Shown here: positions 2,805 through 59,031 of the stretch, in pieces
Position numbering within the stretch: the stretch's first letter is position 1
How the letters are laid out: each line of letters begins with the position of its first letter
IMG/VR virus record: IMGVR_UViG_3300036985_001643
Coordinates: 1-64,000 of that record
From: a virus
Length of the DNA: 64,000 nucleotides
Strand: one strand, 5' to 3'
Made by a program: the position numbers and the translations under genes
The notes under the pieces: generated by a model
The model's database searches: none
What the model was told of the DNA's origin: nothing
The model's input: the letters and a program-made list of their open reading frames with translations, nothing else

Positions 2805-3288
2805 TGCTGATCTTCTTATAATACCTTCTTTCCTTAAACTACACACCAAGGATAAGTCTAAAGGTAAAGAAGAATCTTCGAAGATAATGTGGGCAATGTA
2901 CTATGCGTTTCACCCTGAGTCTAAGTTCTTTCACTATCCTAACAAACAAGAAACAATAGAGAAATCTTTTATCAAAGATCCTAAGTTTAAGTGGGAAGCT
3001 TATCAAGATATAGTAGAAGACTTTAAGAACCTTGTACTTACTGATGCAGAACGTGCTTTACTATCTTGGAACGATATAATGATCATGAGGGATAACTCTA
3101 TCAAAGCATTATACAAACGTGCTTTAGAAATGTCTGATGTTGATGAGTTAGTTAAGATCGATAAGATGTTGGCCAATACTCCTAAGATGTTTGAGGACTA
3201 CAAAAAGATTAAAAAGGATTACGAAGAAGAACGTACTACCAAGAAAGGTAAGAAGATTTTATCATTAACAGATTCAGGAGAGATATAA
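2767..3288 (+). CDS. Conserved helical protein; possible small terminase
   Basis: 173 residues, almost entirely alpha-helical and charged. The N-terminal part (NADLLIIPSFLKLHTKDKSK) leads into long helices and a basic C-terminus (EERTTKKGKKILSL). It lies two genes before TerL, where a small terminase is often found. The Crassvirales small terminase is poorly defined and I see no diagnostic HTH, so this role rests on position only. Codon use and tight spacing support a real gene. Confidence 0.55.
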   Translation: MKAQHETVYWLTNADLLIIPSFLKLHTKDKSKGKEESSKIMWAMYYAFHPESKFFHYPNKQETIEKSFIKDPKFKWEAYQDIVEDFKNLVLTDAERALLSWNDIMIMRDNSIKALYKRALEMSDVDELVKIDKMLANTPKMFEDYKKIKKDYEEERTTKKGKKILSLTDSGEI

Positions 3289-3290
3289 CG

Positions 3291-3536
3291 ATGAGTATTT
3301 GGGATAACAAGAAACAGATTTTAGAAGGTATTTCTAATACATTACTTAAGCAACAAGTAGTAGAAGCTATTGCTGCAGCAAGACAAGGGATATGTAACAA
3401 GTGTCCTAATAAGTCTACTGAATGTGCTGCACTTATTAGTACTTGCTGTTCACTATGTGGATGTTCTTTAAAATTTAAAACACGTTCATTGGAGTCTTCA
3501 TGTCCCGATGGACGTTGGCCAGCAATAAAAGAATAA
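3291..3536 (+). CDS. Cys-rich zinc-binding small protein
   Basis: 81 residues with a CNKCPNKSTEC knuckle, then CCSLCGCSLKFKT and a late SCPDGRW. Eleven cysteines in paired CxxC-like spacing suggest two structural zinc sites. Similar small proteins with the order CxxC, CGC-x-L-x-x-K, SCP-x-G-x-W are common next to phage packaging genes of Bacteroidota. The gene begins three bases after the previous stop and ends just before TerL. Its function is unknown. Confidence 0.6.
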   Translation: MSIWDNKKQILEGISNTLLKQQVVEAIAAARQGICNKCPNKSTECAALISTCCSLCGCSLKFKTRSLESSCPDGRWPAIKE

Positions 3537-3538
3537 GT

Positions 3539-40524: not shown

Positions 40525-43500
40525 ATGGCAAAGAAAAAAATTGTTCCCCCACCACCAAGTCCTGTTAGGTTACAGGCTTTATCTTTAGATACTAAATCAG
40601 ATAAAACTTTAGGATATAATTCAGATATTATTGACGAAGTAGGTGCAGGAGAAGAGGCAGACAGTGGTGTTATGCAAAAACACTACGCTCAAAAAGATGC
40701 TAATTTTTTTGATCCTTATGAGGATTATGTAGATAGAAAAACTTTACATGGTGGGCAATTTGATATAGAAGAATTAAATACTATTAGAGCAACTAATCAA
40801 TCTAATTGGGAACAAGCAGGTCATGCTGTTGCTAGAGTTGCTACTAACATTGTACCTCAAATTATATCAGGGTTTGCTTCTATGGTAGATTTACCAGGTT
40901 ATATAGACGCTGAACATGCTGCTAGTAATAAGATTGTCAATTGGGCAATGGATTTAAAAAAGGAAGTTGATGAAGATTGGTTTCCTATTTACGAAGAAAA
41001 ACCTGGACAATCTATGAGTCTTTCCGATCCTGCTTGGTGGATGTCAAGAGGTTCAGGATTAGTAGAATCGGTAGGTTCTTTTCTTGCTCAAGGTTTTGGA
41101 GTAGGTAAAGTAGTTTCTTTAGGAGCAAAAGGAATAGGTAGTGTTTTACAAGGTAAGAAGTTATTCGCAGCTTTAGAGGCTATACCTGGAGTTACAAGTG
41201 GAGCAAACGTAGCTAAAAGAATAGGAGGAGCTACTCAAAGTTTAACTACAGCTGCAATGTTAAATCAATCTGAAGCTGTAATAGAAGCTACTCAAGTATT
41301 TAATGATACTTATAAAGCTAGACTAGACGAAGGTTGGGATTATGCTAAAGCTAAAAAAGCGGCTGCTGAAGCTGCTTCTACTACTATGAATCTTAACAGG
41401 ATTAATATCTTGTTAAACTTAAGTTCTGCTACAGCGTTCTTAAAAGGACAAAAGTATACTAGACAATTATTAAAAAACCCTACGTTAGGACATACTTCAA
41501 AAGAATTAGTAAAAGAAGGTTCTCAAGAAGCAGTTGAAGAGTTAATCAATCATGTTGCTTCTAAAGCAGGTATGGCTAAAGGAGCTGAGAAAAATTATAC
41601 TTTTGAAAATGCTTTAAACGATATCCATTCTATGGAAGGTTTAGAAGCTGCATTTTTAGGAGCTATTGGAGGTATTGCTCAAACAGGTGGTACTAAAGCT
41701 TTAGAATACAGTAAGTATGGACCAGGAAGTACTACAGACGAATCAGGTGTTAAGATAAGTAAAGTACAAGATGCTCGTAATAGATACCAACAACAACAAG
41801 AAGTTATTAACGAATTAAAGGATAAAGGTGTTAAAATCACAGATGCTTTAAATAGTGTTAAAGAACAACTTGTATTTGAAGAAAAATTAAATGCTGCTTA
41901 CGCAAGTGGTAACGTAGAAGAGGTTAAAACTTTACACGCTCAAATGTTTGAGAATGTAGCAGCTAAACATTTTTCTGCAGGTACTACTGAAGTATTAGAA
42001 AACTTATTAAAAGCAGAGTCTCAAAAAGATCCTGAAGAAGTAGGACAAGACTATATTGATAGAGCTAAACAAGCTGTTAAAGATTTAAGAACCTTAGAAA
42101 ACATCTATAACAATGCTGAAGAATACGCTAATGTAGATGAAGTATATAGAAATAGAGCTAGTAAATTAAGAGCAGAAAAAGTTGTTCCTGAGGCTACTAC
42201 GTTACAAAAAGAATCTGAGTTCCAACTTAATCAAGAAGTTGACGCTATTGCTAAAAAACACATGTTTGATAGAGAGCGTCAAGTATTAATTAAGAAAAAC
42301 GGAGTAGTAGTAGACACAGAAACTAAAACAGAGAAAGCTCCTATTACATATTCTCTTTCTGACTTAGAAAACAATACTGGAGACACTGATGCTAACAAGG
42401 CTGTATATGAGAAATTCTTAGCAGAAGTAAAAGCATTACCTTCTTATGAAAGTACTAATTTTTATACTGAACAATTAGATGCTTTACAAAAGCAAATAAG
42501 AGATTTAGATAAAGATTATAAAAATATTACTTCAGATGCTTATCAAAAAACAGCTAAAGCTAAAGCAGCTGAAAAAACTAAAGTAGAACAACTTACTAAA
42601 GATTTACCTAAAGTATCTACTATCTCTGAAGTAGAAAAAATGAAAGAATCTACTACAGATAAAGACTTTCACAAAGCTGCTGATGCTAAAATCGAAGAGA
42701 TCAAAAAGAGTAACGATGCTCAAGCTAAACAGAAGAAGACTCAAGCTACAGTTGCAGAGCTTAACACTAGAATAGAAAAAGCTACTGAAGAAGAATTAGA
42801 AGGGTTATTAGAAGAAATTAATAATGCAGAATTAAGTCAAACACATAAGACTAATCTACGTAACGCTTACGATAGAAGAGCAAGTATACTTAACGGTACA
42901 CCTGTAGCTGTATCTCCTGAAGAAGAAAACCCTTTAGGTGCTTTTGGTTTTACTAATAATAACCCTAACGATACAGCAGAGGAAATAAAAAGAGAAGAGG
43001 AATCTCGTGCTACTAATCTTCCTAAGGATTTACCTAATCCTAAAACAGAGACTAAAGATGTAGAACAACAAGTTGCTGATACAGCAACTAAGTTATTAGA
43101 AACAGATACTACTAGAGTTACAGGACAAGATACTCAAGGTAACTTAACTTATGCTTACGGTAAGTCTACAGAAGGTCACAACTCTGGAGCAGTATTAAGT
43201 AGAGAGTTTACACAAACAGAAAATGGAGGAATAGTAACAAGAGAGGAATCTACAGATGATATAGAAAATCTACAAGTGTTAGATCCTGAAGTATTACAAT
43301 CAGGTACTCCGTTAATAATGGAAGTAGATACTGATTACATAGGTCCTAAGTATGATCCTTCTTCTAGTACTAGAGAAACTACTTCTTGGGTAGATAGATT
43401 AGCAGTGTTAAAAGCTAAAGCTGAACAACAAGGTATTCCTTTAACACAGTTAAAGGAGTATATTGCTGAAGTACCTATTAAGGTAACTATGGAAGACGGT

Positions 43501-46500
43501 ACTACTGTATTCTACGTACACGATAATGCTTGGTTTAGAGAAGAAAACCTTGACAATACACCTGATGCTATTGCTCAAGATAAAGCTAACAACTTTAAAA
43601 TCAGAGAACAAATAATCAAAAAAGGTAAAGTTACTACTAAAGTATCTTATAAAAGTTTTGGTCATTTATTCAGAGCTTACGATGGCTCTAAGATTACTAC
43701 TTCTGAAGCAATGCCAGATAGTGACTTAGCGTTATCTGTTTGTAAGAATGAATCTTTAGATTTTACAAAAGGTAAACTATTACCAACTACTTTACAAGAA
43801 GGTAGAACTTATGCAATAGTACCTGTAGGACCAGATACTTACTTACCTGTTCCTTTAGAAAGAGCTCCTATTACTCAAGAGATAGTTGATTCTATTATGA
43901 TTGCTGTAGAGGCTCACCTTTCAGGTGACACTGAGAATCCTGTTGTACAGGCTATCGGTAACTCTAACTTAGGCTTAGACATTACTACTACTGAAGGTTT
44001 AAATAAATATGTTCAACAATTTATCTACTTGTATCCTACAGAGAAACAAGAAGGTATTGAGAATCTTTTAATTAACCAAGGTGGTTCTAAAAGTACTTTG
44101 TCTTCTAGTAGACCTATTATTGCAATAACAGCAACAGGTATCGAGTTTGGTAAACCTGGTGTACAAATGGGTTCTTTTACTAATCAAGATGGTGTTAAAG
44201 TACAATCTTTTGCTGTAGTTCTTTCTAAGAACTTTAAGAAAGATGCTAAGACTACAAAAGGTTTAGCAGCGTTAAGAGCTATCTTAGAAAGTGGTAATAT
44301 ACTTTCTCATACTCGTTTAGAAAACTTACAAAAGAATCTTGACAGTGTTATCTTATTAGATAACCAAGGAGCTACTAGAACTATTAAGTACTCTCAACAA
44401 GTAAAAGATTCTACAGTTACTAATCTACGTTCTATTAATATAGGTACAGAGGAAGCACCTAAGTATGTGTATACTATACAACCTACTATTAAGTTTGATG
44501 TAGCGTTTGCTAAATTAGATAAAGTTAAAAAAGCTAGTTCTACTACTAAGAAAAAAGTTACTGTTCCTAAAGTTACTGTAACTCCTGTTGCTACTAAAAC
44601 TACTATTCCTGTTACTACTACAGTTGCTGTATTACAACCAAATGATCTTCAACTTAATGTATCTGCTACTACTAAAAAAGCAGGTATGGATTCTATTACA
44701 AAGCAAGATTCTAGCATAGAGTCATTTGATGAAAATAAGTTTATCAGAGTAACAAAAGCTAATGCAGATGATGTTAATGGTAAATATTATGCTATTGATA
44801 ATGGAGTACTAAGAATAAGAATTAATGGAAAAGATGCTGTTTCAGGCAGAACAGGAGGAGCAACCCAAATAAGTGTTAAAGTCCCAGTAGGATTTAATGA
44901 AAAAGTCTTTGCGGAAAAACTTAAAAACATAAGTCATAAAGACGGTGTTACTACTGATAAAGCTGTACAACAAGTTGTTAATGATGTTAGAAAAGCAATC
45001 ATAGAAGCACAATCAACTTCCGCAACTACTTCTACTATAGAAGCTAAGAAAGCTGATATAGAAAGAAGAAGACAGACAGGAACTAATGTTAGAGGTACAA
45101 CTTATAAAGGAGAAACTACTGAAAAAGATGAATTAAAAGTTACTAAGTATTCTGAGTTTTTTCCTGATGGAAAAAGGATCTCTAAAGGAGGTAGAATAAT
45201 GTTACCTGCTGAATTTATAGAAGAGTACAATATAACTGATCAAGATTATTTAGATAGTCTTGAAGGAGCTACAGAAATAAGAATATATGAAGTAAGAGTA
45301 GGAAAAGATGGTAGATCAGGTATAAGCATACAAGGAACTTTTCCAGAAGGAAACATAGAAACGGATGTTGCTGGTACAGAACTAACTGCTTTAAGTGAAA
45401 CTCGAGATGACATAGAAGCTCAAAAAGCTGATGTAGAAAGAAGAACTACAAAAGTAATATCTTCAGAAATTGTAGAAAAAGGGAACAGAAAAGGTCAAAC
45501 AAGAACAGTAACTCAAACTAATTCTATAAAAGATGTAGAAGGTACAATAGTAAGTGTAACAGAATATGAAGCAAAAGTTGGAGATACTACTATCACACTG
45601 GGAGGTAAATCAATGACTGTTAAAGAGTTCAAAGAAGAATTTCCATTAGATGAGGATTATGAAGAAATATTTGCAAGTTGGCCAGATTTAAATGATGATA
45701 CAATAATTACAGTAAGAAAAGTAAAAAGAACGCCTACTAACTCAAGGTATAAAACTGTTGTGAATATTTTCAACCCTGTGTTAGGGGGTGAGATGGATAT
45801 AACTATTAAAAAAGATGATACTAAATATGATGCAGAACTAGCTGCTTTAAAGCAACCTGTTGCTGGTAAACAAGTTCAGATAGATGATATAGAAAGAAGA
45901 CAAAGAGTGGCTGATATAATTACATCTCAGTTTGAATTAGGTGTTGAACTTCCAAAAATTTTAGAAACATTAGCTGAACAAGGTTATGTAGAAAAGATTA
46001 ATAATAGTGCATTTTTTAAACAAAGTGTTGGTAGAGATGCTATAGTTTTTAATATTGATGGTGCAATAGTACCTATATATAGAAGCTCAGAAGGAACAAG
46101 TAGTAAAACAAAAGGTAAGTGGTATCCTTTTTTCTTTAATGCAGGAGACTGGTTAGTTAAAGGAATGGCTGATAGTTATAAAGATGGTTACAATAATCCT
46201 ATTATTAAACAAATATTAAATAGTTTAAATACTAATTATACCTATGACAAACCAATTGCAAAAGTAAATGGTAACAATAAAGAGGTATTAGTATTATTAG
46301 GTCTTGAAGGATTTGATGAAGAAAATAATGGTATCTATGATTACCAAAATTATCTTGCAGCATCTATAGTATTAAAAGATTGGCAAAGTAAATTAGGTAA
46401 TATTGATGTGTCAGGTTATCAAGAGTATCTTGATGGTGCATTATCTGGGTTAATAAAAGCTAATCCAACTTTAAAATCAGAAATAGAAAGTGCATTTAAA

Positions 46501-49500
46501 ACTGCATCAGATAGTTTTGCAGAACTAGCTGCTTTAGAACAAAGCACAAGTGTTGTAAAAACTCAAAAAACAGAATTAGAGAAAGTAGAACAGGTTAAAG
46601 ATGTAGTAATAAATGGAGAAAAATATTCATATTATCCATTAGCTGTAAGCCAATCTTCAGGAGCATCTGTGTTAATAGCAAACAAAAAATCTATTTTAAT
46701 ATCAGACGATTATGGAAATATTTCTGAGTTAGAAACAGCTGAAGAAAAGATTACAGAAAACGATATTACAGCAGGTAATATTTTTTACATGACTGTAGAA
46801 AAAGGAGTTCCTAGAATTGTTTCAATAGAAGAAAGTTTACCTGAATTAGGTAATGAAAATGGTTTAAGAACTTATTCAATGAGAATAACTTCTTATGACG
46901 CAGGAGGATCAAAAGAAATAGAGTCAGGAATTGGTGATTTAGGAAAAATAAAATCATTAGAAAGTAGTATTGGTAAAAGTGATCTTAGTAAAAAAGAATT
47001 AGCTTCAGAGTTAAATAAACTAGGAGTAAAGAAATTAAAAGTAAAGCAAGGACTTATTGTACCTACAATACCTTCAATTACAAATCAAGGAAACTTTGAA
47101 GAAGATAATACTATTGAGTTACCTAACGATTTAAAGATAGATGCTGCTATTACTTTTACATCTAGTAATGTTTTTCAAAAAACTTTTAAATCTATAACTA
47201 CAGCAATTGTAGCAAGTAAGTTGCAATTTACTAAACCTGGTAGATTTATAACTAAAGAAGGAACTTTAACTAAAGAAGGTGAAGAAATATTAAAAAAATT
47301 AACTTCTACTGCTTCTCCTAAAAATTTAAGAGAGTTAGATGCTTTAATTTCTAGCAACTTAGATAAACAACTTTGGGAAAACGAAAAAGAAAATAGTATA
47401 AACTCTATTGTTTTAGACGCTATTACTCAAAATAAAAAAGTAGCTAATTCGTTATTAAGTACAGGAAGGGTAAAATTTAATTCTGAATATAGTAATGCAT
47501 TTGTTGCTACTAGAGAAACTATTAGAGCTAAAAACAAAGAAAATATACAACAGTCCTTTAATAATATTCCAAGTTTAAAAGAATTAAATTCTCCTGCTTT
47601 AGAACAAACTACAGAGCAAGTTATTGCTAACTCTCCTATTCCTTCTGCTGAACAGCAAGTTGAAGAAGCTATTGATCCTGAAACAATCATAGAACAAGAG
47701 GCTATTCAAATGTTAGCTGATCATACAATTGAAGAAATTAATGGATTCTTAGACAATATTAATATAGGTTTAATCACTGAAGAAGATTTACAAGGACAAT
47801 CTTTAGAACAAGTTAAACAAGCAATTAACAGAGCTAAAGAAATACATAAAAAGAATAGTGAGAAGAAAACAACTTTCCAATTTCCTGGAAAAAAGAGTAT
47901 TACCGTTGATGGTAACACTAAAGATTCTACGGATATCTCAGAGGATACTTTTGATTATTTAATTAGTCCTCTAAACGAAGAACAAGTAGACGAGTTAAAC
48001 GCTGAGGTTGAAGCAATGATTATTAGAGGTGTAGACTCTGAGACACAACGTTCTTTAATTGCTTATATATCTGCAGAGATTATTCAAAAAACTCTTGCTG
48101 AGAAAGAAGTAGGTGGAGCGAGAACAGTGAAGGTTAAAGATATAATGGATACCAATAAAGAATACTTTATTGCCTTAGCAGAGTACTACAAGGAAAACGG
48201 TTTACCTAACAAAGCTAAAAGATTAGAAGCTGTTGTAGAACAGTTTGATAAAGTAGATAGGTTAGTACAACAATACATGAGTCTTCTTACTACAGGTACA
48301 GTAACTTCTAAACCAAAAACAGAAAGTGAAGAATCAGTAGGATTAGAGAAGACTTTATACACTGATGATTGGGCGTTTACTATCGATTCTAAATCTACAG
48401 CTTCTGGAGATTTAAAGAAATTCTTTGCTAATATACAAGCACAGGATAAAGACGGATTAAAACAAAACAGTCTAGGGTTAGAAGAGATAATGCCTTTTGA
48501 TGCAGTATACGATACTCTTCACGAGATATTAGCTAACAAACCTGCTGACTATACAACAATGATGGAGATTCTTAAGTTGTATGCAGAGAATTTCCCTTGG
48601 ATAAACTCTGTAGTAGAATCTATAGAAAAAGCTCCTGAACGTATTAAAAACGAATTTGTTTCAGATATGGCTAAACACCATATAGAGATGTCGTTTGTAA
48701 TGTGGGAAAGAAACAAAAACGGTACTTATAACCTACAACGTTGGTCAAGTAACTCTGCATCTAAAGAGAATAGATTAAGAGCGATGTGGCAATCTAACTT
48801 AAGAGGTGTAGGTACTTCTAGTAACATTGTAGTAGTTAATGACGAAGACGAATACGTATTTGACCACGTAGTTGTAGATAGATTAATAACTCAAGCAGAG
48901 AAGTTTGCTGAGGATCCTTCTGTGGTTACTAACGATGATATTGCTAATTGGTTAGGTCAATTAGGTATTGTACTTGCTGATGACACTTACGATGACTTAC
49001 GTAACGGTTTATTCAACAATAAAGGTAAGAAAACCTTTAACCAATTATTTACTCATTCTCAAGGGTTATTTAAAGTACTTACTGCTAAATTAAAAACTAT
49101 CAGTAATGGTAGACCTAAACCAGGAAAACCTAATACTAACTTAGTAGATAACGCTAATTTAATGACGGATAGTGTTGTTAAAGCATTGGCTAAATTAGAC
49201 GCTACTAATAGTCTTAATACTTCTTCTAACTCTTTCCAATCGGGTGGTAAAACTGTTTACTCTTACGGTAACAATAACTACTTAGTAAACCGTATGAGAG
49301 ACTTAACGGCTCACAATGGAGAAAAGTTTATTAACGAAGAACTTATTAAGCATTTACAAGATACTTCTTTTACTAAAGATAGTTTATGGTTAAAAGATAT
49401 TACTTCTACAGATGCTTTAGGAGAAGCTGCTAGAAGAGAGTTAGGGTTAAACTACTTATCGTTAGAAGCGTTAAAGAAAAAGTTTACACCTTCTCAAGAT

Positions 49501-51450
49501 GATCGTAAACTAAACAACTTGACACCTGCAGAACACGAGGTAATTAAGTTAGGTTTATTCTTAAATAATTCTGGACAAACAATAGGTAAAGAAACTAGAC
49601 GTAGTGTACAATTCTTTTATCCTACAATGTCGGATAAAACTACTATGTTGAGTATCACTGCTTTAGCTAGAGAGTTAACACTTGAAGAAGGAGTAATATC
49701 TAAAGACAACATCAAGTTGTTATTTGATGCTTTAGTACAACCGGAAATTAATCGTATTAGAGATAAACAGGCTTCTGACATTAAAGGTTACGAACCAAAC
49801 TACTTTTACTTTCTTCCTGCTCTTAATACTCACCCTATTACTATTAATGGTAAAGAGAAAACAGTGTTAGACTTTGTTAAAGATAAAGACGATAGTATTT
49901 ACTCACAAGAGTTTAAAGATCAAGTAGAGGCTAAAATTAAAGAAACATACGAACAGTTAGTAGAAGACAAATTAAAAGACTGGAAAACTTTAGGTATTGG
50001 TAAAACAGTTAAAGACAATAAAGGAAGAGTATCTGAACAATATATGTTTTTAAATTCTTCTTACATGGCCGATGTAGCTAAAGGTATAGGAGAAGCTAAA
50101 GTTAAATATGCAGCAATGGATTACATATTTAACAGTTTAATAGCTAACTCTGAATCGTTTAAGTTATTTGCTGGAGATCCTGCGTTGTATGCTAAGTTTA
50201 AAAAAGATAAAACTTTACAACAAAACCTTGAAGAAACTTTTATCAATATTGGTAAACGTCTTGCTGGAGATATTGCTCCAGGTATAGAGTTAGCCAACAG
50301 TACTAACAATAAGTACCTTCAAGTATTCTTAGAAGATAAGGAGTTAAACAGTAACAATGTTAACGATTCTGTGCAGTTAGAGTACTTCTCTAAGATAATG
50401 AAGGACTATAAGAAAAACTATTCAGGGATAGAAGGATCGGATGCTCAAGAGTATACTACTTGGCAAGAACACATCTACGTAATGAAACAATTAGGTAGAA
50501 TTACAGATAACCAATTTGAAGTATTTAATCGTAAGTTGACTGCTCAAACAGATAAAGCTGCTAAAGGTATTCCTTTAAGCAAAGCTGATAAACTTACATA
50601 CGAAGAGTTAGGTTTAGTAATGCAACCTATCAAACCTGTATACGTAGGTAACATCGCTGTAACAGATGACAACGTAGACAGAAGAATCTATATTAAGTCT
50701 TCTAGTTTCCCATTGATTCCTGAGTTAACTGCAGGTCTACAAATAGAGAAAGTACGTAAAGCTATAGAAAAGTTTGAAAAAGAAGTAGGTGGTAATATAT
50801 CTTCAGATGGTAACCCTGCTTTTGTTAGAGCTTCTTTTGGTACAGCCAACAAAGTAGGAGCTGTTAAAAACGCAGTAAAACTATTTGATGATAATGGTAA
50901 CGTAAATGATAACTTAGAAATTAAAGAAGAAAACTCTTTAGTACTAAATCGTTCAAACTTCCGTATCCAACAAGACGTACCTTACAAAAGAGAAAAGAAC
51001 GAAATCAACGTAGGTTCTCAAGAGATGAAGTTATTGTTCGTTAACTTATTAGACGTACAAATCGATGAGAATCACACAGGGGAACAATTGTTAACTAGTT
51101 ACAATCAAGCATATAAAGAATTGTACGAATATGCTAACGAAAAATTAGCAGAAAGATTAGGATTAGTTACCGAGACTACTTCTACTCCAGAGTTAGTAAG
51201 TTTGTTAGAAACTCCTACAACTACTGCTGTTGCTGATACTCACGCATTAAAAGAATCTTTGAAAGGTAAATCTACTGTACAAAATGTAATAGCTAAACAA
51301 AAATTCTCTGAAGAAAAAGGTGAAAATACAATAGATAGAGTTAAATTTATAGACAAAAACTTTGACAAGATTGTAGCATCTTTACTTAAAGACGAGCAAA
51401 TTAAAGTCTTATTCCAAGACGAGAATAACCAAAATAAAAAATGTGAATAA
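40525..51450 (+). CDS. Giant cargo protein ending in a beta-like RNA polymerase half
   Basis: 3641 residues without a break. Residues 1-400 carry hydrophobic helical segments (IVPQIISGFASMVDLPGYI, GSFLAQGFGVGKVV), as in ejected proteins, then charged coiled coil to about 800. About 1395-2190 is an inserted zone with three DIERR linkers (1512, 1636 and 1789) and two similar globular domains. The C-terminus from about 3210 has FAGDPALY, KRLAGDIAPG, DAQEYTTWQEHI, KPVYVG (3370), ASFGTANKVGAVK (3437-3448) and VGSQEMKLLFVN. These fit the first double-psi beta-barrel of crAss/YonO-type RNA polymerase. The catalytic Asp motif is in the protein at 51934. Confidence 0.65.
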   Translation: MAKKKIVPPPPSPVRLQALSLDTKSDKTLGYNSDIIDEVGAGEEADSGVMQKHYAQKDANFFDPYEDYVDRKTLHGGQFDIEELNTIRATNQSNWEQAGHAVARVATNIVPQIISGFASMVDLPGYIDAEHAASNKIVNWAMDLKKEVDEDWFPIYEEKPGQSMSLSDPAWWMSRGSGLVESVGSFLAQGFGVGKVVSLGAKGIGSVLQGKKLFAALEAIPGVTSGANVAKRIGGATQSLTTAAMLNQSEAVIEATQVFNDTYKARLDEGWDYAKAKKAAAEAASTTMNLNRINILLNLSSATAFLKGQKYTRQLLKNPTLGHTSKELVKEGSQEAVEELINHVASKAGMAKGAEKNYTFENALNDIHSMEGLEAAFLGAIGGIAQTGGTKALEYSKYGPGSTTDESGVKISKVQDARNRYQQQQEVINELKDKGVKITDALNSVKEQLVFEEKLNAAYASGNVEEVKTLHAQMFENVAAKHFSAGTTEVLENLLKAESQKDPEEVGQDYIDRAKQAVKDLRTLENIYNNAEEYANVDEVYRNRASKLRAEKVVPEATTLQKESEFQLNQEVDAIAKKHMFDRERQVLIKKNGVVVDTETKTEKAPITYSLSDLENNTGDTDANKAVYEKFLAEVKALPSYESTNFYTEQLDALQKQIRDLDKDYKNITSDAYQKTAKAKAAEKTKVEQLTKDLPKVSTISEVEKMKESTTDKDFHKAADAKIEEIKKSNDAQAKQKKTQATVAELNTRIEKATEEELEGLLEEINNAELSQTHKTNLRNAYDRRASILNGTPVAVSPEEENPLGAFGFTNNNPNDTAEEIKREEESRATNLPKDLPNPKTETKDVEQQVADTATKLLETDTTRVTGQDTQGNLTYAYGKSTEGHNSGAVLSREFTQTENGGIVTREESTDDIENLQVLDPEVLQSGTPLIMEVDTDYIGPKYDPSSSTRETTSWVDRLAVLKAKAEQQGIPLTQLKEYIAEVPIKVTMEDGTTVFYVHDNAWFREENLDNTPDAIAQDKANNFKIREQIIKKGKVTTKVSYKSFGHLFRAYDGSKITTSEAMPDSDLALSVCKNESLDFTKGKLLPTTLQEGRTYAIVPVGPDTYLPVPLERAPITQEIVDSIMIAVEAHLSGDTENPVVQAIGNSNLGLDITTTEGLNKYVQQFIYLYPTEKQEGIENLLINQGGSKSTLSSSRPIIAITATGIEFGKPGVQMGSFTNQDGVKVQSFAVVLSKNFKKDAKTTKGLAALRAILESGNILSHTRLENLQKNLDSVILLDNQGATRTIKYSQQVKDSTVTNLRSINIGTEEAPKYVYTIQPTIKFDVAFAKLDKVKKASSTTKKKVTVPKVTVTPVATKTTIPVTTTVAVLQPNDLQLNVSATTKKAGMDSITKQDSSIESFDENKFIRVTKANADDVNGKYYAIDNGVLRIRINGKDAVSGRTGGATQISVKVPVGFNEKVFAEKLKNISHKDGVTTDKAVQQVVNDVRKAIIEAQSTSATTSTIEAKKADIERRRQTGTNVRGTTYKGETTEKDELKVTKYSEFFPDGKRISKGGRIMLPAEFIEEYNITDQDYLDSLEGATEIRIYEVRVGKDGRSGISIQGTFPEGNIETDVAGTELTALSETRDDIEAQKADVERRTTKVISSEIVEKGNRKGQTRTVTQTNSIKDVEGTIVSVTEYEAKVGDTTITLGGKSMTVKEFKEEFPLDEDYEEIFASWPDLNDDTIITVRKVKRTPTNSRYKTVVNIFNPVLGGEMDITIKKDDTKYDAELAALKQPVAGKQVQIDDIERRQRVADIITSQFELGVELPKILETLAEQGYVEKINNSAFFKQSVGRDAIVFNIDGAIVPIYRSSEGTSSKTKGKWYPFFFNAGDWLVKGMADSYKDGYNNPIIKQILNSLNTNYTYDKPIAKVNGNNKEVLVLLGLEGFDEENNGIYDYQNYLAASIVLKDWQSKLGNIDVSGYQEYLDGALSGLIKANPTLKSEIESAFKTASDSFAELAALEQSTSVVKTQKTELEKVEQVKDVVINGEKYSYYPLAVSQSSGASVLIANKKSILISDDYGNISELETAEEKITENDITAGNIFYMTVEKGVPRIVSIEESLPELGNENGLRTYSMRITSYDAGGSKEIESGIGDLGKIKSLESSIGKSDLSKKELASELNKLGVKKLKVKQGLIVPTIPSITNQGNFEEDNTIELPNDLKIDAAITFTSSNVFQKTFKSITTAIVASKLQFTKPGRFITKEGTLTKEGEEILKKLTSTASPKNLRELDALISSNLDKQLWENEKENSINSIVLDAITQNKKVANSLLSTGRVKFNSEYSNAFVATRETIRAKNKENIQQSFNNIPSLKELNSPALEQTTEQVIANSPIPSAEQQVEEAIDPETIIEQEAIQMLADHTIEEINGFLDNINIGLITEEDLQGQSLEQVKQAINRAKEIHKKNSEKKTTFQFPGKKSITVDGNTKDSTDISEDTFDYLISPLNEEQVDELNAEVEAMIIRGVDSETQRSLIAYISAEIIQKTLAEKEVGGARTVKVKDIMDTNKEYFIALAEYYKENGLPNKAKRLEAVVEQFDKVDRLVQQYMSLLTTGTVTSKPKTESEESVGLEKTLYTDDWAFTIDSKSTASGDLKKFFANIQAQDKDGLKQNSLGLEEIMPFDAVYDTLHEILANKPADYTTMMEILKLYAENFPWINSVVESIEKAPERIKNEFVSDMAKHHIEMSFVMWERNKNGTYNLQRWSSNSASKENRLRAMWQSNLRGVGTSSNIVVVNDEDEYVFDHVVVDRLITQAEKFAEDPSVVTNDDIANWLGQLGIVLADDTYDDLRNGLFNNKGKKTFNQLFTHSQGLFKVLTAKLKTISNGRPKPGKPNTNLVDNANLMTDSVVKALAKLDATNSLNTSSNSFQSGGKTVYSYGNNNYLVNRMRDLTAHNGEKFINEELIKHLQDTSFTKDSLWLKDITSTDALGEAARRELGLNYLSLEALKKKFTPSQDDRKLNNLTPAEHEVIKLGLFLNNSGQTIGKETRRSVQFFYPTMSDKTTMLSITALARELTLEEGVISKDNIKLLFDALVQPEINRIRDKQASDIKGYEPNYFYFLPALNTHPITINGKEKTVLDFVKDKDDSIYSQEFKDQVEAKIKETYEQLVEDKLKDWKTLGIGKTVKDNKGRVSEQYMFLNSSYMADVAKGIGEAKVKYAAMDYIFNSLIANSESFKLFAGDPALYAKFKKDKTLQQNLEETFINIGKRLAGDIAPGIELANSTNNKYLQVFLEDKELNSNNVNDSVQLEYFSKIMKDYKKNYSGIEGSDAQEYTTWQEHIYVMKQLGRITDNQFEVFNRKLTAQTDKAAKGIPLSKADKLTYEELGLVMQPIKPVYVGNIAVTDDNVDRRIYIKSSSFPLIPELTAGLQIEKVRKAIEKFEKEVGGNISSDGNPAFVRASFGTANKVGAVKNAVKLFDDNGNVNDNLEIKEENSLVLNRSNFRIQQDVPYKREKNEINVGSQEMKLLFVNLLDVQIDENHTGEQLLTSYNQAYKELYEYANEKLAERLGLVTETTSTPELVSLLETPTTTAVADTHALKESLKGKSTVQNVIAKQKFSEEKGENTIDRVKFIDKNFDKIVASLLKDEQIKVLFQDENNQNKKCE

Positions 51451-51923
51451 TGGAAAAATTACTTACTGACGTAGAGCAAAAAGAATTAAATAAGTTTGGT
51501 AAATTAGAGTTAACAGCTTCACAAGCTTACTTACACCTTACTAATAGAATGAAGACATTGGGTTACTTTGGTGCAGAGAAGTTCTTTGCAGGTGAATCTA
51601 ACGATGAAAGAGAGCACTATGCTAAACATGAAGACTTTATGAACAAGTTTAATTGTGAATTAAGTGTTGAAGCATTGAGCCCTATTGCTTCTGATGTTAG
51701 TAACATTAAAGAAGCTTTAGAAATGGCTTACCAAATGGAGGTAGACTTATTAAACGAGTACGAAAAGTCTTGTAAACTTCCAGAGTTATCAATAAAAGTT
51801 GTACTTTTGTTACAAGAGTTTGTTGAAATACAAAGTGGTGCAGTTGGAGAATACGGAGATCTATTAGCTAGATTAACTCTAACAGACAACATGTTATTAT
51901 TCGATCAAGAACTAGGAAACTAA
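51450..51923 (+). CDS. Phage-encoded ferritin
   Basis: 157 residues, a four-helix ferritin. ELTASQAYLHL has Glu20. GYFGAEKFFAGESNDEREH has Glu53 and His56. AYQMEVDLLNEY has Glu97, and EFVEIQ has Gln128. These match the ferroxidase ligands of H-type ferritin (Glu, Glu, His, Glu, Gln). A late ligand seen in E. coli FtnA (Glu130) is Ala131 here. The C-terminal LLFDQELG matches the fifth-helix end of bacterial ferritins. The start is fused to the stop of the 3641-residue gene (TAATG), so it is made with the polymerase. It would oxidise and store Fe(II), or protect DNA from iron chemistry. Confidence 0.88.
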   Translation: MEKLLTDVEQKELNKFGKLELTASQAYLHLTNRMKTLGYFGAEKFFAGESNDEREHYAKHEDFMNKFNCELSVEALSPIASDVSNIKEALEMAYQMEVDLLNEYEKSCKLPELSIKVVLLLQEFVEIQSGAVGEYGDLLARLTLTDNMLLFDQELGN

Positions 51924-51933
51924 AAGTACAATT

Positions 51934-54900
51934 ATGGCTTGTCAATATTTTGTAAACGGAGAATGGATCTCTGAGGAACAGTTTAAAGAAGTTTTAAACA
52001 ATGGTTTATTAGATAATTTAGTAGCCAACGGTACTGTTAAAGAAGAAGGATTTCCCGTAGATAATACTAAACTCCTTAAAACTGAGACAGTTACTACTAC
52101 TAAAACAACTGTACCTGTAGAAAAACTAGCAGCAATCTTAGCAAAAGAAGTGAGTACTCGTTCAGGGTATCCATTAAACATGTTAAGTGCTCTAGAGTTG
52201 AAAGAAGACAAGTCAGACTTTAAAATTCCTTTATGGGCTTCTCCTTACGCAAGTAAGTTTGAGTCTTTATTAACTTCTTTAGTAAGTAATAAAGTAGTTA
52301 AACAAAAGTTTGCTGGTACATCAAGTGTATTAGGTTCGGAAGAAGGGTTTAGAATTAAACAAGGTGACGAAGCAGCAGGTAGTTTAAAGGACTCCTCTAT
52401 TGTATTTTCAGACAACTTTGATCCTGAGAAAGGTTTACAACCGATGAGGGTAGATCCTAAAACAGGTAAAATATTACCTGCTCAAATAATGTTACCTTTT
52501 AAGTTTAGAGACGAGTCAGGTAACATATTGTTTATCAACGATTTCCTTAAATTAGATTCTTCAGGAAGACCTTTAAGAACTCCAGACGGAAGAGTAACTA
52601 TTGACGATAGTAAATTACCTGCTAAATTAAGACAGTTATTTGGTTTCCGTATTCCTACACAGGAGCGTAACTCTATGGCTGCTGTAGAAATAGTAGGGTT
52701 TTTACCTGAAGCAATGGGAGATTTAGTACTAGCTCCTAGAGATTTTACTAAACAGATGGGTTCGGATTTTGACGTTGATAAGTTGTACAGTTACTTGTAT
52801 AACCACTTCTATAAAGACGGTAAATTATACACTAATTTCCCAAGTGATAAGAAGACTATTAAAAAACTAACAGATGCTGCTAAAGAACATTTAGCTACAT
52901 TGAAAAGTTCTTTAAAACTAAATAGTGCAGAACAAGCATTGTTAAATGCTTACATTGATAACAAGTTAGAAAAAAACGATGATAACGATCAAGACGAGTT
53001 GCTTACTAAAGCTACTACTCTTATCGCTAGACTTACTAATTCTCCAATAATGGAGGAGATAGAAAACGTTACTAACGATTTATCTATTTACAACAGAGCT
53101 TACAAAGCTTCTCGTCAAAATAAAATATTAGACATTCACTTATCAGTGATGTTGAGTAATAACCCTGAGGTTATTAAATCTATTATTGCATTAGATTCCT
53201 TTGGAGATTTTGAGCAATTAGCTCAAGACTTATATAAAGTAAGAAGTGAGCGAGGTTTAATTCCTCCTATTACCACTATTCTTTCAGATACTTATCAAAG
53301 AACTAAATACATTAACGCTACAGCAGGTAAAACTGGGGTAGGTTCTTTCTCTTTAGATTCTACTTTTAATGCATCTGCTCAAGGTAAAGAGTTGACCATC
53401 ATCAATATGGACGATGAGACTCAAACAAATGTATTTGGTACCCCTATAGAACCTAAGAATCCTACTGCTGCTGAAGTATTAGAAGCTAATATGACTGTTG
53501 CTGCTTTTGGAACTAACGTTTCTAAAGGAGATTTATCAGACAAATATACACTACGTTCTAGAAACTTAATCAACAAAGCTAAAGAAGAAGGTAGAGAACT
53601 TACAGAGGAAGAAAAAGATTCTTTAAAGATGAAGTCTACTATTATTAGATCTTTACAATCTACAGCTGTGGATAATGAAAAAGCTCAAATATTAGATAAA
53701 CTTAACATCAACGATCAAACTATGGATGCTGTTAGAGCCCTTACTATATTAGGGTTTGAAGAGAAAGAAATAGTAGGATTGATAACACAAGAGATTATTT
53801 GGGAGTTTACTGCAGCATTAAAGGATAACGGTTCTTCACTGACTCCTTTCCAAGCTAACGCTGCAGAAACTTTATTTATTGATTTAGTAAAGAAATACGA
53901 TCCTGAAGGTAAACTAGCAGAATTAAAACCTTACGAATTAGAAGCTTTACAAAGTGCTACTAGTGAGTCATTAATGAGTGACATCAATACTCAAACGTTA
54001 CAAGAGTTAAGCGTAGGACCAACACCAGATGCTAATCTTAGACAGTTAGCTGCTTTAGCTAAATTCCTTAAACTTACTCAAATAGGTAAAGATATTAAGA
54101 CCTTACAGTCTACTATAAATACTGATTCTAAAGGTGTTCCTAAATCTTTAGTAGAAACAGATGCTAAAGTAAAACAAATAGAAAGGTTAGCTGCTTCTAA
54201 CATCTTTAATGCTACTAAGTTGTTAGGAGAATATGAAGGATCTAAATTAGTTACACCTACTACTCTAAATGGTTTTGCTTCTAAATACGGTACTATGTTT
54301 GCAGATACTATCTACAAACAATATTTCCCTTATCATACTACAGGTTTTAAAGTATTAGTAGATGAGTTACTACAATATATACCTAAAGGTAAAAATGCTT
54401 CGTTAACTAAACAAGCAGAGTTACAATTAGAGTTAATGGACGCTGTTAAGTCTTTCCTTTATGGTAATGCTAATACAAACTTGTTTACAGAAAACCCTGA
54501 TAGTGAACGTGCTAGATTGTTTATAGACACTAAAACTAACAAAAGTTTAGCTACTATACTACAGTCAGTTTCTGAAGAAAAGTGGTATACTTCTAATGGT
54601 TTCCTTAATAAGTTATCGTTAGACCAACAAAAGAATGGTCAAGTTTCTAGAGTAAACTTCGAATCTGCTTCAGGAGAAAACTTAGACGAAAGAGATATCT
54701 ATGACGGGTTTAACTACTTGTTATCTAAGAATTTCCCTATTGGTACTTTTAACGGTATCGATTATACTTCTCGTATGTTGGCTCAAGATTTAGTAGCTTC
54801 AGCGTTCTTAGAAGGAGGTCAACAAGGTTCTAAACAATACTTGAAGTATGTACCTACTGCTTACCTTAAAACTATAGGTTTTGGAGATTACTTATCAAAT

Positions 54901-57900
54901 ACTTCTTTTAATTACCTTGATACTTTCTTAGGTAATTTAAGCCCTGAAGGACAGTTAATGTATAACAATCCTTCTAGTTTTATGAGACAATACTTCCAAA
55001 ATAATGCTGATAAAGCTAAAAAGGTATCGTTGTCTGACTTACAAGGTAAAATATCAGCTGTTCCTGAAGGATACTTTACACTAAACGAAGAAGCTCTAAA
55101 GGACAATATAGTAGAGATTACGGATCCTTACACAGGTGAACCAACTACTACACAGACTAAGTTCTTATCTATCTATGATAGTAAAGTACCAGGTAAGTAT
55201 GCATTATTCGAGTTTGACGCTGTAGATAGATTGTACCGTAGAATACCTACTTTACAAGGTTCTTTCGGTTTTGTATCGTATAACTCACAAGTTGGTACAC
55301 CGTTACCTATTGAAAAAGCTAACAGAACTGTTAAACAAGAAGGTAACCAAGAAATACCAGGTTATACTTTACCTCATACACCTACTACTCCTACAAAGTC
55401 TTTTGATGTAAACGTGGTTAACAATACTGTTAAACCAGTAACTGCTAATACTTTACCTATTTCAAAAACATTGTCTGGTACTAAAGAAGCACTAGACGAT
55501 TTAATTAATAATATACAATTTGAAGACGGAGTATCTAGTTTAAACAGACAGTTGTTAAGTTCTTTAAGAGATTTACAATTACCTGATAACTTTAAAGTAG
55601 TGTATGATGATACTTTAAGTAGTAGAGGAGGTTATAGTTATGACAAACAAATATTGTTTATTAACTTAAAACATGAAGCTAATCAAAATATTGACGGTTT
55701 AGCTACCGCTGTTGCTCACGAATTAATACATGCTTTAACAAGTGAGGCTATTTATGAATACCAAAAAGGTGATTTAAGTAAGTTAACAGCTGACCAAATT
55801 AAAGCTATTGAGTCTTTAAAAGCTTTACAAGATAAGTATATTGATCATTTAAAAACTAAAGGTGAAGCAGGTGCTTTACAAGCATTTAAAGATAAATATG
55901 AAGCTTGGGTAGCACGAGGTAAAACAGGAAAAGTAGGAGTTTCTGCAGAAGATATTTCTAAGTTTTATGCAGGTATTAAACTATCAGAGTTTGTTACTAT
56001 GACTCTTAGTGATCCAGGTTTTCAACAACATCTAGCTTCTGTTATCGATGAGTCAGGAAAATCTCTTTGGGAACAAATTAAAGAAGTTTTAGGAGAATTG
56101 TTAAATACTTTAGGTTTAGATATTAAACCAGGTTCTGCTTTAGCATCTGCTGTAAAAAGCTCTATGGATTTAATTACTGCTAACCAACAAGCAATGGGTA
56201 CTAAATTATTTGTTACTAAAATTGATCAATTTAACTACTCTTACGATGCTGTTAATAACGTTGTTATCCACAATGCTAAAACAGGTGATAAAGTAGAAAC
56301 TAACGATACACAAATTAATAAGGTATTAGTACAATATGCATTAGCTAATAATAAGGAACAACGTGTGTTTAATGGTTCTACTTATGTTGCTATTGCTGAT
56401 AGAATATTAAACATTAAAAACGCTAACGAAGTAAGTCTAGAAACTTGGGAGTCTGCTAAATCTACTAAGCCATCTACTAGTATTAAACCTACAATAGATA
56501 CATCAAGAGAATGGAAAGGTGATTTAGAATCAAGACCTGTCTATACTTCTGAAGGAGTTAATACTATGAGAACTACTTCTGCTAAAGCTGATGAACATTT
56601 TGGTAATCCGTTTAGTGAAGCAGGCTATGGTAATACTATAAAAGTAGCTAGCATAGGTGCGGCTGTCAGAATGTATAAGGATTGGTTATTAAACAATGCT
56701 GTAACTGAATCAGAAATTGTAAAAGGAAATGTTAGTGACTTAGCTAAATTTGATAACCAAAGAGCTTGGATACTTAATCAAATTAATCAAGGTAAACTTG
56801 ATGGAGCTACATTGCTTTATGCTGGTAAATCTGAAGCAAGAGGTCAAGGTATGCACCCTACAGCATTAGCTGAAGTAGTAGAACAATTAAGAAGTAAATC
56901 AACTCAACCATCTACTCAACAACAAACTCCAGTAAGTGAAGTTAAAGAAGGTGTGCAAGAAATATTTGAATCTAATCCTGAATTAGCTAATATAGGTACA
57001 CCTGAACAATACTCTCAATATCTTGATACTATATTTCCTGATAGTAAAGTAAAAGATATTCTTTATCATGGTACAGCTTCTCCTAACACTATTGAGAAAT
57101 TACAACCTCAAAATGATAGAATATACTTTAGTGATAATCTTACAGCTGCAAGATATGCTAGTTGGGATCAAGATAATAGAGTACAATTTGAACCAGGTTC
57201 TCAAACAAAGTTACAAGTAATACCTGCTATTATAAATTTAACAAATCCTGTAAAATTATCAGACGTTAACTTTAAAGAAACAGAGACTAATAAAGAAGGA
57301 GACGGTATTATTGGTACTAATATAGAAGATCCATTAGGAGGTAGAGAAAATCAAATAGTAGTAAGAAATGCTGATCAAGTTTATGAATTAGGTACTAAAC
57401 AAGATTTAGAAGGATTTAAAAAGTTTATTGCTAAAGATACTAAATACGAACTATTCCCAGGTGTATATGCTAATCAAGGTCAAACAGAAGCTTTAGATAA
57501 GTTAACAGATTTCTTAAGCTCTGATAAACAAGCATTCTTACTACAAGGAAAAGGTGGTACAGGTAAAACTACTATTATTAAAAAGATTGTTAAAGAAGCT
57601 CAAGCTCAAGGTAACAGTGTATTAGCAATTGCTCCTACTCATAAAGCTAAAAAAGTATTAGCTAAATCATTAAACGATCCAGGTATTAAGTCTACTACTT
57701 TAGCAGCTGCTTTAGCTATTAAACTTGATGAAACTACAGGTAAATTTACACCTGATGAGTTTGCTAGAAAAATGGATAAAGTTCCTATTACAAAAACATC
57801 TTTAGTAATTATTGATGAGTCTTCTATGATTTCTGATAAACTATTAGAAGAGATTAAAGAGTTACTACCTAAAGGTACTAAGATTATTTTTATGGGAGAT

Positions 57901-59031
57901 AAGGCACAGTTACCTCCTGTAGGTCAAGAGAAAGACAGTGCTGTATTTGATGTTAAAAATAACTATACATTAACAGAGAAAATGCGTCAAGCTGCTACTT
58001 CTCCTATTATTAATATAGGAACTAAAGTAGCACAAAACGTAGAAACTACTGGACAAAGAGTTGCTAATCCTATTACAAAAGAAGATAGAGTAAATGCATT
58101 TGATGAAGTAAGTGGTTCTTCTATAATTTGGGAGGACAGTGAAAACAAAGCTTTGGATACCTTTGTAGAAGATATAAAAAATGCTAATGGTAATGTTGAT
58201 TTTGCAAAAGTTATTACTTTTAATAATCAAAACCACAATAGTCCTCAATCTGTAAAAAGTTTAAATACTAAGATTAGATTAAAATTATACGGAGAACAAG
58301 CAAATCAACAACAATTTATACCAGGTGAGATATTAACAGCGTACGATACTTTTGGAGGTGAAGATATTTTATTTTACAATAGTGAAGATCTTATAGTAAA
58401 AGAAGCTACTGAGCCAGCAAGAAAAACAATTTCTGTAAATGTTACTTCAAGACAACAAGGTAATCGTTCTAAAAGTTTTGAGTTTAATATAATAAATCTT
58501 ACTCTTAAAAACGAAGAAGGTAAAGATATAACAGTTCCTATTATTGCTGAATCAAGTAAGGAAGAGTATCAAAGAACGTTAAGTCAATTGTTTAAAACAG
58601 ATAAACAAATGGGTTATGCTTTAAGTAGTAAATTTGGTAATTTAGAGTATGGATACGCTATCACTTCTCATAAAGCCCAAGGATCTACGTATACTAATGT
58701 TTACGTGATGGAAGACAATATTATGGGTAGTTCTAACGGAGGTTCTATGAAGGCTAAAAGTCAATCATTATACGTAGCTGTTTCTAGACCTACTACTAAG
58801 TTGGTAATGGTTAGTCAAAAAAACAACCAAAATATCACAGAGGGTACTTTTAGTATGAGTAACTTAGGAGATATCGATTTAGGTAATTATACAGATAAAG
58901 ATAATGCTTATAACAACGATGATTACGAAGCTTATTCTAGAGAAATGTATAACAATGACCAAGATCAATTGTTAGCAGAATCTCCAATAAGTAGAGATAG
59001 ATTAGAAAATTATTTGTTACTTTGTAAATAA
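51934..59031 (+). CDS. RNA polymerase beta'-like half fused to peptidase, ART and SF1 helicase
   Basis: 2365 residues. FRIPTQERNS (238-247) and GSDFDVDKL (276-284) match the beta' double-psi barrel, with three catalytic Asp (278, 280, 282) like NADFDGD. VAHELIH (His1262, Glu1263, His1266), with a likely third ligand Glu1352 in LSEF, is a zinc metallopeptidase. HFGNPF (1555) begins a DUF4326-like domain. LYHGT (1710) and IYFSDN (1730) mark an ADP-ribosyltransferase-like domain. A full SF1B helicase follows: GKGGTGKTT (1872-1880), VIIDES (1958-1963), MGDKAQLPPVG, ITSHKAQGST, LYVAVSR. This is a polyvalent virion protein and RNA polymerase in one chain. Confidence 0.8.
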   Translation: MACQYFVNGEWISEEQFKEVLNNGLLDNLVANGTVKEEGFPVDNTKLLKTETVTTTKTTVPVEKLAAILAKEVSTRSGYPLNMLSALELKEDKSDFKIPLWASPYASKFESLLTSLVSNKVVKQKFAGTSSVLGSEEGFRIKQGDEAAGSLKDSSIVFSDNFDPEKGLQPMRVDPKTGKILPAQIMLPFKFRDESGNILFINDFLKLDSSGRPLRTPDGRVTIDDSKLPAKLRQLFGFRIPTQERNSMAAVEIVGFLPEAMGDLVLAPRDFTKQMGSDFDVDKLYSYLYNHFYKDGKLYTNFPSDKKTIKKLTDAAKEHLATLKSSLKLNSAEQALLNAYIDNKLEKNDDNDQDELLTKATTLIARLTNSPIMEEIENVTNDLSIYNRAYKASRQNKILDIHLSVMLSNNPEVIKSIIALDSFGDFEQLAQDLYKVRSERGLIPPITTILSDTYQRTKYINATAGKTGVGSFSLDSTFNASAQGKELTIINMDDETQTNVFGTPIEPKNPTAAEVLEANMTVAAFGTNVSKGDLSDKYTLRSRNLINKAKEEGRELTEEEKDSLKMKSTIIRSLQSTAVDNEKAQILDKLNINDQTMDAVRALTILGFEEKEIVGLITQEIIWEFTAALKDNGSSLTPFQANAAETLFIDLVKKYDPEGKLAELKPYELEALQSATSESLMSDINTQTLQELSVGPTPDANLRQLAALAKFLKLTQIGKDIKTLQSTINTDSKGVPKSLVETDAKVKQIERLAASNIFNATKLLGEYEGSKLVTPTTLNGFASKYGTMFADTIYKQYFPYHTTGFKVLVDELLQYIPKGKNASLTKQAELQLELMDAVKSFLYGNANTNLFTENPDSERARLFIDTKTNKSLATILQSVSEEKWYTSNGFLNKLSLDQQKNGQVSRVNFESASGENLDERDIYDGFNYLLSKNFPIGTFNGIDYTSRMLAQDLVASAFLEGGQQGSKQYLKYVPTAYLKTIGFGDYLSNTSFNYLDTFLGNLSPEGQLMYNNPSSFMRQYFQNNADKAKKVSLSDLQGKISAVPEGYFTLNEEALKDNIVEITDPYTGEPTTTQTKFLSIYDSKVPGKYALFEFDAVDRLYRRIPTLQGSFGFVSYNSQVGTPLPIEKANRTVKQEGNQEIPGYTLPHTPTTPTKSFDVNVVNNTVKPVTANTLPISKTLSGTKEALDDLINNIQFEDGVSSLNRQLLSSLRDLQLPDNFKVVYDDTLSSRGGYSYDKQILFINLKHEANQNIDGLATAVAHELIHALTSEAIYEYQKGDLSKLTADQIKAIESLKALQDKYIDHLKTKGEAGALQAFKDKYEAWVARGKTGKVGVSAEDISKFYAGIKLSEFVTMTLSDPGFQQHLASVIDESGKSLWEQIKEVLGELLNTLGLDIKPGSALASAVKSSMDLITANQQAMGTKLFVTKIDQFNYSYDAVNNVVIHNAKTGDKVETNDTQINKVLVQYALANNKEQRVFNGSTYVAIADRILNIKNANEVSLETWESAKSTKPSTSIKPTIDTSREWKGDLESRPVYTSEGVNTMRTTSAKADEHFGNPFSEAGYGNTIKVASIGAAVRMYKDWLLNNAVTESEIVKGNVSDLAKFDNQRAWILNQINQGKLDGATLLYAGKSEARGQGMHPTALAEVVEQLRSKSTQPSTQQQTPVSEVKEGVQEIFESNPELANIGTPEQYSQYLDTIFPDSKVKDILYHGTASPNTIEKLQPQNDRIYFSDNLTAARYASWDQDNRVQFEPGSQTKLQVIPAIINLTNPVKLSDVNFKETETNKEGDGIIGTNIEDPLGGRENQIVVRNADQVYELGTKQDLEGFKKFIAKDTKYELFPGVYANQGQTEALDKLTDFLSSDKQAFLLQGKGGTGKTTIIKKIVKEAQAQGNSVLAIAPTHKAKKVLAKSLNDPGIKSTTLAAALAIKLDETTGKFTPDEFARKMDKVPITKTSLVIIDESSMISDKLLEEIKELLPKGTKIIFMGDKAQLPPVGQEKDSAVFDVKNNYTLTEKMRQAATSPIINIGTKVAQNVETTGQRVANPITKEDRVNAFDEVSGSSIIWEDSENKALDTFVEDIKNANGNVDFAKVITFNNQNHNSPQSVKSLNTKIRLKLYGEQANQQQFIPGEILTAYDTFGGEDILFYNSEDLIVKEATEPARKTISVNVTSRQQGNRSKSFEFNIINLTLKNEEGKDITVPIIAESSKEEYQRTLSQLFKTDKQMGYALSSKFGNLEYGYAITSHKAQGSTYTNVYVMEDNIMGSSNGGSMKAKSQSLYVAVSRPTTKLVMVSQKNNQNITEGTFSMSNLGDIDLGNYTDKDNAYNNDDYEAYSREMYNNDQDQLLAESPISRDRLENYLLLCK

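Follow-up and report, generated by a model that had tools for sequence, protein, structure and literature searches.

IMG/VR virus record IMGVR_UViG_3300036985_001643 is a 79,279-bp virus contig with a crAss-like terminase, portal and major head protein. We analysed its positions 1 to 64,000 (64,000 nucleotides, hereafter the window), in which a ferritin gene lies between two giant genes that each encode part of the virion RNA polymerase. The conserved ends of the flanking proteins, and the Cys residues placed at them, suggest a head-to-tail chain of cargo proteins, at one junction of which the ferritin may dock. The relevant features are as follows.

40525..51450, + strand: upstream giant cargo protein, 3641 residues; g067-like part and N-terminal half of the virion RNA polymerase (gp66 198-1205)
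51328..51447, + strand: conserved C-terminal tail of the upstream giant, FIDKNFDKIVASL...NKKCE, with the terminal Cys at 51442-51444
51450..51923, + strand: ferritin gene, 157 residues, five helices; ferroxidase ligands E20/Y27/E53/H56/E97/Q128
51934..59031, + strand: downstream giant cargo protein, 2365 residues; C-terminal, DxDxD-bearing polymerase half and C-terminal Dda/RecD-type helicase
51934..52068, + strand: conserved N-terminal tag of the downstream giant, MACQYFVNGEWISEEQFKEVLNNGLLDNL, with Cys3 at 51940-51942
52765..52779, + strand: catalytic DFDVD motif of the RNA polymerase
57457..58824, + strand: Dda-like helicase domain fused to the polymerase half
59023..59025, + strand: C-terminal junction Cys (residue 2364) of the downstream giant, facing the next cargo protein
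59042..63181, + strand: third cargo protein, 1379 residues, phi14:2 g065-like; its sole Cys is residue 6 (59057-59059)

The ferritin and the split virion polymerase

The open reading frame (ORF) at 51450-51923 has no internal stops and scores 41.2 bits against Pfam Ferritin (PF00210; gathering cut-off 24.5 bits), in agreement with a preliminary description of the window, which had called a complete ferritin gene there. A profile of the ferritin relatives matched eukaryotic and bacterial ferritins in the PDB. The AlphaFold2 model (predicted local distance difference test score, pLDDT, 94.6) contains helices at residues 7-37, 40-66, 86-108, 115-144 and 148-156, and its top-ranking Foldseek matches are the FtnA proteins of V. 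cholerae and E. coli, with template modelling (TM) scores of 0.91-0.92 over 158-159 columns. The short C-terminal helix E is aligned to FtnA as well, bearing out the bacterial-ferritin C-terminus proposed earlier. The preliminary description had named a structure prediction and a survey of relatives as its tests; the model has a ferritin fold including helix E, rather than lacking a diiron bundle, and relatives occur in at least 127 IMG/VR stretches, rather than being absent.

The five ferroxidase residues listed in that description (Glu20, Glu53, His56, Glu97 and Gln128) were correctly named and do not vary among homologues, being kept in 107 of 107 full-length relatives (the alignment has 108 homologues, which form 64 clusters at 90% identity, and its single gapped row comes from a truncated fragment in a metagenome-assembled genome, MAG). 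The FtnA ligands E17, Y24, E50, H53, E94 and Q127 are retained in the phage ferritins, with Y24 replaced by Trp in one group. The site-C glutamates of FtnA (E49, E126, E129 and E130) are not conserved as Glu; these positions hold D/S/E, I/H/F/V/L, G/K/R/N/T and A/S, respectively, and Glu at the E49 position is found in a minority. The lack of conservation of site C indicates a ferroxidase centre of the H type, and assignment to the FtnA subtype, which turns on this third iron site, was rejected. Bacterioferritin was rejected because the haem-ligand Met beside the bridging Glu is generally absent (position 54 is mostly Leu or Arg, with Met in 2 of 108), and a Dps type was set aside because the ferritin fold and helix E match FtnA. 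A spurious or decayed ORF is ruled out by the invariance of the ligands and by the number of stretches with relatives. Sequence and model thus identify the product as a true ferritin of the H type whose C-terminal helix resembles that of bacterial ferritins, and a catalytically intact enzyme, as predicted from the conserved active site, is the best explanation.

The start codon of the ferritin gene overlaps the stop of the upstream gene (TAATG at 51448-51452), as previously described, and the ATG of the downstream giant lies 10 nt past the ferritin stop. The two flanking giants match consecutive stretches of one PHROG (2749-2993 and 3003-4005). In alignments with Fpv3 gp32 (4287 residues), the match of the upstream ORF ends at 2887 and that of the downstream ORF begins at 2897, confirming the reported location between two polymerase halves. 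In phi14:2 gp66, a structurally solved virion polymerase with its catalytic DFDID at 1361, the flanks correspond to 198-1205 and 1308-1811, so that the ferritin separates the part before gp66 residue 1205 from the DxDxD half. The downstream giant matched gp66 with E-values of 2e-9 (tblastn) and 1e-22 (profile) and contains DFDVD at residue 278; as a gp66 homologue with the catalytic DxDxD, it is assigned by sequence to the Crassvirales virion RNA polymerases. A polymerase profile gave no match among PDB sequences, and the identification came via phi14:2 gp66. The polymerase forms one uninterrupted protein in both phi14:2 (gp66) and Flavobacterium phage Fpv3, and is split here.

The products of phi14:2 g065-g067 are virion proteins according to their tandem mass spectrometry annotation, and the ferritin gene lies, as had been proposed, within the virion-cargo gene block at the polymerase split. 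In line with the preliminary description, a search of the open-licence literature gave no described ferritin in the polymerase block of Crassvirales, and none is known to us. The downstream giant also contains a zincin-like AVAHELIHALTSE motif, so that polymerase, protease-like and helicase parts are combined in one protein (51934-59031). The Dda/RecD-type helicase fusion is not universal, and the downstream protein is much shorter in several relatives.

Relatives and the three-part cassette

A search of 50,697 phage records and of plasmids recovered no such ferritin, and a search of species genomes revealed two loci, L057 and L058. At L057 the ferritin is next to a relative of the phage giants; L058 is a 94-residue ferritin fragment. 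These are Rhodoferax and Zoogloea MAG contigs with a phage-type ferritin, and are probably phage contigs binned with bacteria, in which case some hosts would be Betaproteobacteria. No close cellular relative of the phage ferritin was found. In this survey ORF calls were mechanical, the IMG/VR contigs are redundant and partly fragments, and the six groups of relatives are our own definition.

All examined contexts with recognisable neighbours are virion modules, and the majority of the ferritins lie between two giant proteins. These giants vary, being polymerase in crAss-like contigs, ART-PolyVal-containing proteins in high-GC (guanine plus cytosine) contigs such as L073, and unassigned in others. 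Most relatives share a cassette of three parts: an upstream giant with a conserved C-terminal tail, the ferritin, and a downstream giant with a conserved N-terminal tag (together, the flanking tails). A group within L038-L056 instead has the order portal-ferritin-scaffold-head protein, with a crAss-type portal and no flanking tails (the portal was labelled by PHROG, the scaffold and the head protein from where they lie and how large they are); its members are L038, L040-L042, L046, L047, L049-L052, L054 and L056. The order portal-minor head-ferritin-neck is found in L028, L029 and L108, and the ferritin lies directly past the portal in L107 and L109.

Conservation of the first ~45 residues of the downstream giant extends to proteins that are otherwise unrelated, and this tag adjoins 89 of 110 ferritins. 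Tag profiles cross-matched between groups A, D1 and D4 (E-values of 1e-7 to 1e-21) and between D4 and D2 (2e-4), with D3 weakly linked, and matched no other N-terminus among 9732 ORFs. The conserved tail, comprising the last ~30 residues of the upstream giant, adjoins 84 of 108 ferritins and connects all six groups (best E-value 3e-15). Among 5400 ORF C-termini, its profiles matched only ferritin neighbours, counting L134, which was found through the tag, and one ferritin-less lineage. Scans seeded with the tag alone found a ferritin immediately before it in 20 of 24 and 26 of 27 loci; the remaining cases are one lineage without a ferritin gene and one contig that starts at the tag. A combined tag alignment (A3) was too diverse for scanning. 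The AlphaFold model of the tag, of moderate confidence, shows a beta-hairpin and a helix; a fold search with the 50-residue tag model gave no match, and a tblastn search of cultured phages gave nothing relevant. Ferritin and tag distances are correlated (Mantel r 0.59, 0 of 5000), a result confounded by shared ancestry and not used as proof.

The L002/L010 group has an unsplit polymerase; its ferritin shares 67-73% identity with that of the window and, together with the tag, is located ~1280 residues ahead of the region to which the upstream half in the window is homologous. Its occurrence on giants that are unrelated to each other, and at another polymerase position in the L001/L002 group, indicates that the cassette moves as a unit. 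In one lineage (L127, L128, L129 and L131) the ferritin is gone, and the tail, the tag and all junction Cys residues are kept, representing either a recent loss or the ancestral state. The Cys residues of its three-protein chain lie at 1459 of 1459, at 3 and 3446, and at 4. The proposition that the tag always needs ferritin is ruled out by this lineage.

Cys residues at cargo junctions

The upstream giant of the window (3641 residues) contains Cys only at 1073 and 3640, and the downstream giant (2365 residues) only at 3 and 2364. A similar placement was found across the ferritin loci. In 85 upstream giants totalling 151,329 residues, 86 of the 95 Cys lie within the last 10 residues, and 76 of these proteins have exactly one Cys, located there. 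Every downstream giant (86 of 86) has a Cys in its first 12 residues, which is the sole Cys in 59; the density in other ORFs on the same contigs is 4.34 Cys per 1000 residues. The downstream giant of crAss-like members carries a further Cys at its C-terminus, and the product of the gene that follows carries one at its N-terminus; groups whose chain ends at the downstream giant have no such C-terminal Cys. The tails are homologous across the ferritin loci, so these counts are not independent.

A more independent test was provided by ten Crassvirales without ferritin: phi14:2, crAss001, cr112, DAC15, cr106, Fpv3, crAss002, crAssphage ZA, jaberico and cr110 (loci L169, L176, L177, L178, L179, L180, L181, L182, L183 and L021). 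These are still related phages, and their chain ends match the tail profiles weakly at most. Cys was present on both sides of 15 of 15 cargo junctions and at 0 of 20 free ends, with three N-termini counted on the assumption that an internal MSC is the true start; random Cys placement (20,000 trials) satisfied at most 1 of the 15 junctions. Fused proteins lose the Cys pair (Fpv3 gp32 and crAss002 gp33), and the newly broken chain of the window has one. Cys was entirely absent from the virion proteins gp15 and gp16 of T7 and gp50, gp51 and gp52 of N4.

The annotated starts of the fused polymerases crAss002 gp33, ZA QAU03811 and cr110 QOR59078 are probably too early, and the internal MSC fits the N-terminal Cys rule. 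The fused polymerase genes with doubtful starts are:

L177:12065-24802
L178:12134-24409
L181:12038-25291

In crAss001, the Cys pattern implies the order gp47-gp50-gp49 despite genes on opposite strands. The computed neutral monoisotopic masses of the predicted cross-linked terminal peptides are 1812.82 for gp47 CNS with gp50 CITTNSTIEELAAK, and 1992.02 for gp50 ICGANTLYEL with gp49 CAIIPQVR.

A possible cargo train, its rivals and known systems

In phicrAss001, gp47, gp49 and gp50 are virion cargo by mass spectrometry, and are thought to exit N to C, partly unfolded, in an order dependent on packing and mutual interactions; disulfides occur elsewhere in this virion, at the portal vertex and tail (PMC10172136). 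The simplest explanation for isolated pairs of Cys at the termini of chains that otherwise have few is an end-to-end disulfide, and the ferritin-specific tails suggest that ferritin is placed at a cargo junction. We hypothesize that the cargo proteins form a head-to-tail, probably disulfide-linked train with ferritin docked at one junction, a reading to which we assign a probability of about 0.45. The giant cargo proteins, nearly free of internal Cys, would each present one Cys at the end that meets a neighbour, and successive chains would be linked one behind the other and ejected as a single train, N to C and in a set order, before reduction in the host cytoplasm releases them. In the lineage of the window, a new chain break would have been introduced between the polymerase halves, where the C-terminal helix of the upstream protein and the N-terminal hairpin-helix of the downstream protein may dock ferritin beside the Cys pair. 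Ferroxidase chemistry (Fe(II) and O2, with release of peroxide) could help to form the bond, or alternatively could guard the junction and the packaged DNA from iron-driven damage. The oxidase role is the weakest step and is unlikely. The full picture, in which thousands of residues of cargo are covalently chained via terminal Cys and threaded as one strand, with the junction-docked ferritin acting as a redox enzyme or clamp, is doubtful.

Several observations weigh against the docked train. Neither flanking tail is present in the portal-ferritin-scaffold group, in L028, L029 and L108, or in L107, L109 and L067, and the single tail-less record read from end to end, G005 of the portal-ferritin-scaffold group, shows no Cys junction. 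Links between the tag of the window and subfamilies D2 and D3 are weak. The ferritin-less L127/L131 lineage (83.6 kb record) retains both tails and all junction Cys, and the second junction of the window, between the downstream giant and the third cargo protein, is without ferritin; together these indicate that the Cys chain needs no ferritin. The constrictions of the crassvirus tail are <50 Å (PMC10172136). A 24-mer (about 12 nm) would not fit through such a tail, and would need to stay in the capsid or leave as unfolded subunits. The placement of ferritin in the virion is suggested by genomic context.

Alternatively, ferritin may be packaged simply as a protectant that oxidises Fe(II) in the capsid and limits Fenton damage, with the tails serving as anchors and the Cys residues unrelated. 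The intact ferroxidase site is consistent with this role, as are the constant location in virion modules, including the tail-less portal/scaffold and portal/neck contexts, and the Dps-type proteins reported in some phages (PMC8008677, PMC6669764). It nevertheless leaves unexplained why the gene occupies a chain break with a conserved tail and a terminal Cys on either side, and we consider it rather unlikely. These two tails and the junction Cys, which the preliminary description does not mention, make generic iron storage or a "Ferrojan horse" role less likely than a function tied to the junction between giant cargo proteins. Management of iron or oxidative stress in the cytoplasm of the infected cell, with the late operon used for expression only, is a job that cellular ferritins have, and both sequence and fold mark the protein as a true ferritin. 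Against this, most of more than 100 loci keep the gene at a cargo junction, coupled to the tails, and late virion genes would presumably act too late to reshape metabolism; such a role seems quite unlikely.

Two further readings concern the Cys residues and the cassette itself. One Cys from each side meets at the ferritin, and the pair may coordinate iron, zinc or a metal cluster that ferritin supplies or shapes, with no disulfide. However, the same pairs occur at the ferritin-free junctions of the ten Crassvirales, and each junction offers two Cys with no further conserved ligand seen, which makes metal binding improbable. We regard as most improbable a mobile insertion in which ferritin and its neighbour ends split giant genes and hitch-hike without function for the phage: two different polymerase sites, unrelated giants and one lineage cleanly without the gene fit such an insertion, but the active site is invariant across 64 clusters, the tails are conserved, and the cassette contains no endonuclease or transposase.

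Podoviral phages push megadaltons of protein, correctly ordered, along a narrow tail, and for crAss-like phages, which rank among the most abundant viruses of the gut, the junction-Cys rule offers a simple and testable explanation of how this is done. With the ferritin, the virion gene module gains a redox metalloenzyme that is conserved in more than 100 phage loci. We found no published account of a cargo-junction ferritin or of cargo junction Cys in the open-licence literature, and know of none.

Comparison with known systems shows that the phage ferritins share the fold, including helix E, and the ferroxidase ligands of bacterial non-haem FtnA (E. coli, V. cholerae) and H-type ferritins, but lack the site-C Glu set, carry the signature VGEYxDL and are encoded in phage cargo modules. 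Phage Dps and other ferritin-like proteins (Gratiaviridae, Lactobacillus phages) are likewise phage-encoded members of the ferritin superfamily, but are of Dps or Mn-catalase types with no cargo junction or tails described; the Lactobacillus phage gene lies near replication genes (PMC8008677, PMC6669764). The polymerase cargo of Crassvirales (phi14:2 gp65-gp66-gp67; phicrAss001 gp47, gp49 and gp50) has the same polymerase, neighbours and junction-Cys rule, but lacks ferritin and has its polymerase core in one chain, whereas the core in the window is split in two. A parallel can also be drawn with encapsulins, in which an HK97-fold shell encloses a ferritin-like enzyme via a short peptide. Here, in contrast, the conserved peptides sit on the neighbouring proteins and not on the ferritin. 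The tails could serve as protein-joining tools.

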